Source: Pseudomonadota bacterium (lineage in GTDB: Bacteria; Bdellovibrionota_B; Oligoflexia; Oligoflexales; CAIYRB01). From it: a stretch of DNA of 52,552 nucleotides. A program made the position numbers and the translations under genes. This document shows, piece by piece, positions 43,095 through 45,759 of the stretch (its first letter is position 1; each line of letters opens with the position of its first letter). The notes below the pieces were generated by a model. That model was not told the DNA's origin, made no database searches, and saw nothing but the letters and a program-made list of their open reading frames with translations. The DNA is taken from contig JAPLFY010000031.1 in the NCBI GenBank assembly GCA_026390435.1, forward strand, positions 1 to 52,552. Reading direction: 5' to 3'.

Positions 43095-43580
43095 ATGGCG
43101 AGACTTGAATATCGCGGCGAGACGATCTCTGATGTCCACACAATTAAGACGCTGCTTGATGCAAACGCAATACCCTACGAACGCTGGGCCCTTCGCGAGC
43201 AAGTCACGACCGATGAGGAAGTTCTGCAGCTTTATCGGCCAGATATCGAACGACTGCAACGCGAGCGAGGATACCAATCCATAGATCTGGTGGCACTCAA
43301 GCCCACCACGCCCAATCTAGACGGGATACTCGCCAAGTTCACTAAAGAGCATCACCATACCGATGATGAGGTTCGCTTTACTGTTGCGGGAGAGGGCGTA
43401 TTTGAAATTGCCACGGTTCCCGATGATTTCCTGAAATTCACAGCCGAGCCAGGAGATCTCATAGTGATCCCCGCATATCGCCGTCATTCTTTTTATCTGA
43501 CAGCTGCCCGCGCAATCAGATGTATTCGGCTTTTCGAGACCTCCGCGGGCTGGGAAGCGATTTATGAAAAAAATTTTTAG
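43095..43580 (+). CDS. mtnD: acireductone dioxygenase
   Basis: The 161-residue cupin has metal ligands His86, His88, Glu92 and His131, in KEHHHTDDEVRF and AYRRHSFYL. It matches the ARD family length and the block KF-x2-EH-x-H-x-DDEVRF. ARD oxidises the acireductone of the methionine salvage pathway to the keto acid that is transaminated to methionine. No other mtn gene lies in the window. It has a good ribosome site (AGGA, 7 bases before ATG) and is divergent from the Smr gene. Confidence 0.93.
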   Translation: MARLEYRGETISDVHTIKTLLDANAIPYERWALREQVTTDEEVLQLYRPDIERLQRERGYQSIDLVALKPTTPNLDGILAKFTKEHHHTDDEVRFTVAGEGVFEIATVPDDFLKFTAEPGDLIVIPAYRRHSFYLTAARAIRCIRLFETSAGWEAIYEKNF

Positions 43581-43711
43581 CGGGCGTTGACAAATCAAAA
43601 CCGGAAGTCCAGACTGACTGACTCAGCCTTTGACACGTACCGTTTTAGGGTCCGTTTCATGGGGATTAGCGATATATGGTTAGAACATGGATCTGGCTCC
43701 GCCGCTCCCAT

Positions 43712-43753
43712 CTATCCACTGCTTATCCTCATGTTATCAACATATTGTCCACA
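43712..43753 (+). promoter_or_regulatory. four 11-bp-phased DnaA-box-like elements
   Basis: CTATCCACT (43712), TTATCCTCA (43723), TTATCAACA (43734) and TTGTCCACA (43745) all have the same orientation with starts exactly 11 bp apart. Each differs from the DnaA box TTATCCACA at one or two positions, and the majority base at every position is that box. A GCTGGT-A-ACCAGC dyad (43764-43776) follows. It lies in the 221-bp gap upstream of the RdgC-like gene. The array may bind DnaA, or another factor with a similar site. Confidence 0.5.
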
Positions 43754-43801
43754 TGCCTAAACCGCTGGTAACCAGCTAGATTTATTGAGCAAAATAGAGC
43801 C

Positions 43802-44407
43802 ATGTCCACTTCCTATGACCATATCGATCAGTTAACCACTTTAGGGCGAGCCAAAGGCTTCCTTGGACGCGAATTTCTAACGTGGCTCTGGTACATCGCA
43901 GAGACCTCGCGCGAGCGTCTTAAGCTGCCAGTAGACAGTCGGGAACTAGAAGTCGATTTGTGGGTCGATGACCGCCTGGTACTAGAAGGCACAGCAGCGA
44001 TGAGCCATCAAAATGTAATGAAGGGTGGCGATCCCAGCCACAGTCGGGAAGCGGCCGCGTCTTTATCTACGGGCAAGACGGTGCGGGAACTAAAGTTGGG
44101 ACTCAGAGTGAAAGATGGCGGCGAATACTCGGCCATTCTTGGCTGTGACGATCTGAACCCAAGATCACTTAAGTTGCCTTCACCAGAGCCGCAAGAGGGC
44201 CAGGATGGCGAAAAGAAATCAGCTGCAAGCCTCCCGCTGGCGGAACGGCTGCAAGCTACTGCGACTTTCGCTGGAATTCTTGATGCATTATTCGCCCGCT
44301 TTCTTGATACGAGGGTAGCTCCCGATTGGGAAAAAACCGTACTCATCGACATGCGGGAATGGATAAAGCAGCGGCAGAACAAACAGGATTCTGGTGCGCT
44401 TCACTAA
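43802..44407 (+). CDS. RdgC-C-terminal-like conserved protein
   Basis: The 201-residue protein shows a pattern known from RdgC, the ring-forming recombination-associated DNA-binding protein: FLGREFLTWLWYIAETSRE, LEVDLWVDDRLVLEG, SREAAASLSTGKTVRELKLGLRVKDGGEYSAILGCDDLNPRSLKLP, and a final AGILDALFARFLDTRVAPDWEKTVLIDMREWI. It is shorter than E. coli RdgC (about 303) and lacks the N-terminal part. The similarity is from recalled motif shape, so the function is tentative. It is followed directly by the YihY gene (TAATG overlap). Confidence 0.55.
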   Translation: MSTSYDHIDQLTTLGRAKGFLGREFLTWLWYIAETSRERLKLPVDSRELEVDLWVDDRLVLEGTAAMSHQNVMKGGDPSHSREAAASLSTGKTVRELKLGLRVKDGGEYSAILGCDDLNPRSLKLPSPEPQEGQDGEKKSAASLPLAERLQATATFAGILDALFARFLDTRVAPDWEKTVLIDMREWIKQRQNKQDSGALH

Positions 44408-45759
44408 TGCAAAACCCCCTGTCAGTTGCATTTCGACAGCTACCTGAACGCCTCAGCATGCCGGCTCATCACGCCCGGACCCTGGTGCAGGATACAGTCC
44501 GCTGTGATTTGACCAAACAAGCCAGCGCCATGGCTTATGTGACTCTTTTGTCTTTAGTGCCGTCGCTCGTGGCGATATTCTGCGTACTCTCCCTATTTGC
44601 TCCACTGCTTGGCAAGGGATCGGACCTAATCGACACAGTCCGCGAATTTATTCTCGAAAACCTTGCTGCGGAAAGTGGCGAGGCCGTCGTCAAATATCTC
44701 GATAAAATGATCGGTAAGATCAGCCTAGCAACCATCGGCTGGTCAAGCTTCGCCAGTGTATTGGTGACTTTAGTCCTACTGCTTAGGCAGATAGAAGAAG
44801 CTCTAAATCGGATTTGGCTTGTGCGCAAAGGCCGCAACGTCTTCATCAGATTCATGTACTTCTGGACCTTTTTAACTCTAGGCATGGTCGTAGTGGCTGT
44901 GGTCGTAGGCTTCACCGCTGGGCTTAGCTTTCCAGCTTTATTCTCAACAACGACATCTGTACCAGCGAGCAGCATTGCCTGGTTATTCGCGGCTATCACG
45001 GAACTACTTGGCAGCTTCATCTTTTTCTTTTTCCTCTACAAGATCGTCCCCAATTGCGCCGTTGGCACAAAGAACGCCGCTATTGGCGCGGCCGTGGCAA
45101 CTTCGGCACTACAACTAGGCGGCCGGTTGTACGGGCTCTATATTCGCGACGCAAAAAACTACGAAAACCTTTACGGCGCCTTGGCGCAGGTACCAATATT
45201 TCTCCTGTGGCTTTATATCGGCTGGGTCATCATCTTGATCGGCGCGCTAGTATCTTGGCGGCTTCAAGAAGGCTTCCCGCAGCCAAATGAAGAAGAGGCC
45301 CTCGACCAAAGCAAGACACCTTTAGAGCAATTGCGGAACACACAGGTTAAGGCCTCGCTACCGTGGGTCTCGCTCTTAGCCATATATAAACAATTTGAAT
45401 CCGGTGACGGTAAGGGACTTAGCGGCCAAGATCTTGCACATGCTCTACGTATGCCCGTGACTTGGGTGAACGAAGCACTGGACGCCCTACAATCACTTGG
45501 CTATGTGATCGCAGGCAAACAGCAGGCCGCCGTCGGCAGTGCCTCCCCACTCGTCACAGACCCATACTTCCCCACGTCGCCTGCCACCCATCTGGCCGTG
45601 GCAAAGGTCAATCAAGATTTAGCCAGCCCCATGGAGCAGTGGCTCGAACACTGGCACTACGACCTGCCGCTAAATCTGCGTAAGGCGTTAGGATTGGTCA
45701 GCATGTTAAGGCACGATCACGGGCAGACGACGATCAGCGACGTATTGCAGAGCCTCTAA
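44407..45759 (+). CDS. YihY/BrkB-family inner-membrane protein with C-terminal winged helix
   Basis: The 450-residue protein has a six-helix membrane core: ASAMAYVTLLSLVPSLVAIFCVLSLF, the AIGAAVATSALQLGGRLYGLYI segment and GALAQVPIFLLWLYIGWVIILIGALVSW, all typical of YihY (once misnamed RNase BN). A cytoplasmic C-terminal part (about 315-450) resembles a winged helix (SGQDLAHALRMPVTWVNEALDALQSLGYVIAG). The biochemical role is unclear. Start: ATG 44407, sharing its A with the stop of the preceding gene; the frame extends to 44326 but within that gene. Confidence 0.88.
   Translation: MQNPLSVAFRQLPERLSMPAHHARTLVQDTVRCDLTKQASAMAYVTLLSLVPSLVAIFCVLSLFAPLLGKGSDLIDTVREFILENLAAESGEAVVKYLDKMIGKISLATIGWSSFASVLVTLVLLLRQIEEALNRIWLVRKGRNVFIRFMYFWTFLTLGMVVVAVVVGFTAGLSFPALFSTTTSVPASSIAWLFAAITELLGSFIFFFFLYKIVPNCAVGTKNAAIGAAVATSALQLGGRLYGLYIRDAKNYENLYGALAQVPIFLLWLYIGWVIILIGALVSWRLQEGFPQPNEEEALDQSKTPLEQLRNTQVKASLPWVSLLAIYKQFESGDGKGLSGQDLAHALRMPVTWVNEALDALQSLGYVIAGKQQAAVGSASPLVTDPYFPTSPATHLAVAKVNQDLASPMEQWLEHWHYDLPLNLRKALGLVSMLRHDHGQTTISDVLQSL

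Follow-up and report, generated by a model that had tools for sequence, protein, structure and literature searches.

Four DnaA-box-like 9-mers lie head to tail on the + strand at positions 43712–43753 of the 52,552-nucleotide stretch of DNA analysed here (the ‘window’), in exact 11-bp steps with 2-bp gaps, ahead of a gene for the C-terminal half of RdgC (rdgC-C). The four-box observation is real, and far beyond chance. Judging from the box sequences, DnaA very likely binds the array, which is probably a DnaA operator lying outside oriC, within the leader of the rdgC-C/yihY operon; its main role, on balance, would be cis-regulation. If DnaA does bind, the poorly understood regulation of RdgC is linked to the protein that initiates replication, in an order that has received little study, the Oligoflexales, to which named matches assign the clade. 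The conserved array offers a natural four-box test of cooperative DnaA binding against box quality, and it also points to a split of RdgC.

The phased array and its distribution

The first box (43712–43720, + strand, CTATCCACT) has two mismatches; it is weaker and less conserved than the other three, and is degenerate in genomes G004 and G005. The second (43723–43731, TTATCCTCA), third (43734–43742, TTATCAACA) and fourth (43745–43753, TTGTCCACA), all on the same strand, have one mismatch each. Bases 1–6 of the second box, TTATCC, are invariant in the six genomes of the genus; most relatives show an AACA ending at one box; and the fourth box is a perfect TTATCCACA in the genus's five other genomes. 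The majority base of the four boxes is that of TTATCCACA at all nine positions. The coordinates, the steps and the one or two mismatches per box given in the initial annotation, and its statement that the majority bases equal the DnaA box, were all reproduced. Near-boxes on their own are frequent in the window (142 matches with up to two mismatches, versus 120 expected), so the evidence resides in the phasing. When the 260 bp upstream of the gene were shuffled 1000 times with dinucleotides preserved, the four-box score was never reached. A three-box, 11-bp-phased pattern with up to three mismatches matched the 4.28-Mb source genome only at the array, where two matches overlap, and the reversed pattern used as a control matched nowhere; similar phased arrays at unrelated loci, which had been named as evidence against the idea, are thus missing from this genome. 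Pairs barely exceed background (114 matches for the two-box pattern versus 90 for the control). The 6-1-6 dyad described after the array, GCTGGT-A-ACCAGC, is present at 43764–43776 (+ strand), but it is common only to the source genome and its close relative G002, and does not belong to the conserved element.

When 56 genomes were searched at the protein level, 40 proved to have the downstream gene. Twenty-three orthologous upstream regions, 22 of them usable, were scored against 1000 shuffles each; for that of G007 the start used in scoring is uncertain. In 18 of the 23, no shuffle reached the observed score. Three or four phased boxes occur at the orthologous place in 17 of the 22 usable Oligoflexales orthologues, from three families, and two boxes occur in the eighteenth, from a fourth. 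These 18 comprise six genomes of the source genus (f1), whose possession of the array answers the earlier concern that it might be absent from close relatives, ten of family f8 (two genera), G023 (f11) and G022 (f6). The array of G023 consists of four exact TTTTCCACAGT units, while in G022 only the last two boxes remain. A single perfect box is left in G006, and none of the boxes is found in G011 or in two genomes of f6 genus g20, among the 23 regions scored. Both strands were scanned, and the clusters lie on the gene's own strand in all 18 loci. Invariant alignment columns are concentrated in the array, in the source genus (23/42 versus 38/217 in the flanks; Fisher p 1.4e-6) and in f8 genus g9 (18/42 versus 20/193; p 3.1e-6), p-values that serve as guides because the genomes are related and the columns therefore not independent. 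The spacer columns between boxes are little conserved. Outside the order, none of the loci scored for more remote homologues (in Silvanigrellaceae, Desulfomonile, Myxococcota and others) has the array. The upstream neighbour in the window is an ARD/cupin-family (mtnD-like) gene (43095–43580, + strand; Pfam PF03079). The array does not depend on this neighbour, being kept in f8 genus g15 and in G022, where a different gene lies upstream; synteny is largely conserved, however, so the linkage of array and gene is not fully independent evidence.

Across 14 genomes, triple arrays occur mostly at the rdgC-C locus or at oriC, and the reversed control gives none. Of 20 further genomes, most of them lacking the gene or the array, seven have triple arrays: at oriC in G009, G019 and G037, and at single other places in G006, G016, G021 and G030. 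The smr, mtnD, rdgC-C and yihY genes are absent from the checked triple-array loci of these further genomes (1.5 kb on each side). This survey is consistent with a link between array and gene, although the same picture would result if the entire locus had been lost. Further phased arrays of DnaA boxes occur in family f6 at L228 1501–1531 (G011:C68:102307), L230 1501–1531 (G022:C1:474576) and L250 (G030:C251:2329), downstream of a gene for a protein of ~190 aa. Those of G011 and G022 lie 34–41 kb from dnaA, where this gene and an htpX-like gene face each other with their 3' ends, and so are not at a promoter. DnaA-like boxes also occur near an FAD-oxidoreductase-like gene at L243 1590–1613 (G000:C31, about 68.6 kb; about 12 kb from dnaA in this, the source genome) and at L241 1367–1397 (G023:C170). 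Finally, a box pair, TTATCCACAAGTTATAAACA, is present at L139 (G000:C31:8025–8044), ahead of an 82-aa frame that by eye resembles a Fis-type HTH protein.

The RdgC half-gene and its leader

The gene at 43802–44407 (+ strand) encodes a 201-aa homologue of the RdgC C-terminal half. Alone, the protein matches no Pfam or NCBIfam model, and no RdgC chain was found when the family profile was compared with the sequences of solved structures. Compared with an RdgC protein set by hhalign, it aligns to RdgC 192–298 (E 1.9e-5, probability 78%). Its predicted structure (pLDDT 83.5) has 2owl_B, 2owy_A and 2owl_A as the top three PDB matches in Foldseek (probability 1.00, the next match 0.11; E 2e-3 to 7e-3), with E-values that are modest and a full-length superposition that is poor. 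In a Phycisphaerales bin (L108) the rdgC-C domain is fused behind the RdgC N half (PF04381, E 1.5e-4, a match that falls short of the curated cut-off); L109 looks, on reading, like the same fusion. In the source genome the N half is encoded apart from rdgC-C, by an unlinked gene matching PF04381 (L116; G000:C116:21708–21986), and in relatives, too, PF04381 matches a separate gene, mostly at model positions 16–160. The gene ahead of which the array stands had been taken to look like RdgC. Fold and profile bear this out for the C-terminal half only; a full-length RdgC with both halves in one chain is not what this gene encodes. No DnaA box (up to one mismatch) occurs within 200 bp upstream of the N-half gene in the 20 loci read, and the candidate of an array shared with that gene was dropped. 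From the separate PF04381 gene and the absence of boxes upstream of it, we conclude that RdgC is split in Oligoflexales, and that the array stands before the C half only.

The stop codon of rdgC-C is overlapped (TAATG) by the start of a yihY/BrkB-family membrane protein gene (44407–45759, + strand, with a longer frame from 44326; Pfam PF03631, E 6.7e-44), its probable operon partner. Upstream of the array lies a candidate sigma-70 promoter (43587–43615, + strand; TTGACA-17-CAGACT, with a weak -10); a strict promoter scan makes no call in the window. TTGACA with a 17-bp spacer recurs in 12 of the 18 loci, with the -10 end 86–122 bp upstream of the array, and G022 has a TTGACT candidate 60 bp upstream. 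In G041 and the f8 g15 loci (five of the 18), the candidate promoter is more distant, or there is none. The -10 elements of these candidates match the consensus at only 3–4 of six positions. If the TTGACA candidate is used, the array lies in the leader.

Origin, sink or operator

Phased boxes resemble those of oriC, and the initial annotation had allowed that the array might be an origin element. The dnaA–dnaN gaps of Oligoflexales contain the boxes TTATCCACA, TTATCCCCA, TTACCCACA and TTTTCCACA, spaced 11–12 bp apart in several genomes, and the boxes of the array are of the same kind, as judged from box sequences without a statistical test. The gap boxes, however, adjoin trio-like repeats of the CTACTACGACTACT type (by eye), and no trio repeat stands beside the array in the 43712 region. 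Nor were dnaA, dnaN or gidA recognised by eye among the ORFs of the window, as had been stated; dnaA is on another contig, C31, and the cumulative GC-skew minimum of the source genome is there, at about 78–84 kb. Along 292 kb of the array's own contig (C14), cumulative skew, the check that had been proposed, falls with no turn at 43.7 kb. In G013, where dnaA and the array share contig C2, the minimum is at dnaA, at about 310–320 kb, far from the array at 113 kb. With the minimum at dnaA in both genomes and no inflection at the array, the array is not the origin: oriC lies in the dnaA–dnaN gap, in the source genome on another contig, and a role for the array as origin or origin element is extremely improbable. 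In f8 genus g9, the dnaA–dnaN gaps (L159, L163, L169), the presumed oriCs, have few good boxes, in contrast with the well-kept rdgC-C array. The DnaA of the source genome retains the HTH region (...LPRQVAMYL...GGKDHTTVMH).

The main rival to an operator is a DnaA titration or conversion site of the datA/DARS kind, which would mainly sequester DnaA or alter its nucleotide state, and would precede rdgC-C by chance. Some 200 kb separate the array of G013 from oriC, and about 300 kb the two-box remnant of G022, close enough for early replication; in E. coli, DnaA boxes are likewise more frequent around oriC (PMC12371093). Furthermore, two f6 genomes in which the rdgC-C array is reduced or absent have another array 34–41 kb from dnaA, away from a promoter. 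We nevertheless consider such a site unlikely: in each of the 18 loci the boxes keep the same strand and the same place ahead of rdgC-C, and four weak boxes make a small sink. It is less likely still that the array is the operator of some other DNA-binding protein, an autoregulator for example, whose site happens to resemble a DnaA box. DnaA binding is predicted from sequence, none of the boxes is perfect and one of the box positions tends to AACA, all of which leaves some room for this reading, but the 9-mers of the array and of oriC in the same genomes overlap in their spectrum, and triple arrays are found mainly at the rdgC-C locus and oriC. An element acting in the RNA leader, rather than as a DNA site, is very improbable: the array is probably within the 5' untranslated region, but the leader has no match in Rfam and is predicted to fold no better than shuffles (z -0.32), results on which a riboswitch or structured leader was rejected.

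Control of the operon by DnaA is the best reading, given the probable leader position, the behavior of DnaA in E. coli and the box of a Bdellovibrio. In vivo, E. coli DnaA favours paired boxes with 2 or 3 bp between them, genes of replication and repair are among those it regulates, and it can block elongating RNA polymerase (PMC11317965); the DnaA box of B. bacteriovorus is NN(A/T)TCCACA (PMC5124646). The suggestion, made at the outset, of a secondary DnaA-binding array is strengthened by conservation across the order and by boxes of the kind found in oriC, from which binding is predicted. DnaA, probably as ATP-DnaA, would assemble cooperatively on the head-to-tail boxes across their 2-bp gaps, and occupancy of the array would make transcription of the RdgC C half follow either the replication cycle or the level of free DnaA. 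Since the array lies between the candidate promoter and the start codon, partial repression by roadblock is the likeliest mode, a tentative proposal in which DnaA would impede transcription through the leader until free DnaA falls. Against an operator, every box in the source genome departs from the consensus, and the f8 g15 loci are without a comparable promoter at that distance. DnaA control would also be dispensable, as the array is absent at the orthologous gene in G011, in f6 genus g20 and in the Silvanigrellaceae loci examined. More speculative is the wider proposal that, with RdgC split and only the C half under a multi-box DnaA leader operator, DnaA sets the supply of the two-part RdgC over the replication cycle. 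If true, this would be a direct control of recombination by replication, previously undescribed.

Comparison with known systems

A search of open-access literature, covering titles and abstract openings, found no paper that connects RdgC with DnaA control and none on DnaA in Oligoflexales; the text of the ChIP-seq study of E. coli DnaA (PMC11317965) makes no mention of rdgC. Compared with RdgC itself (PF04381; PDB 2OWL, 2OWY), the Oligoflexales protein matches the C-terminal part in predicted fold and profile, but in this order an unlinked gene of its own encodes the N half. Like datA, DARS1 and DARS2 of E. coli, the array is an extra-oriC cluster of DnaA boxes; unlike them, it is a phased run of single orientation, fixed to one gene. 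With the oriCs of Oligoflexales and Bdellovibrio bacteriovorus (PMC5124646) it shares the kind of box and, for several Oligoflexales oriCs, the 11–12-bp spacing, but it is without the trio repeat, the GC-skew minimum, and dnaA and dnaN. At asnC, a DnaA roadblock for which PMC11317965 cites Schaefer and Messer (1988), boxes are likewise inside the transcribed region, as is predicted here; the Oligoflexales array differs in having four phased boxes before the coding sequence. The closest parallels are the E. coli double boxes upstream of polA, purH, nrdA, nrdD and rpoH (PMC11317965). Both they and the array are TTATCCACA-like, head to tail, with 2–3-bp gaps, and precede genes of replication, repair or nucleotide metabolism, but the Oligoflexales arrays have four boxes in most loci, lie downstream of the candidate promoter, and have half of RdgC as their target. 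The array is thus an element of known kind, an extra-oriC DnaA site, and its target is new.
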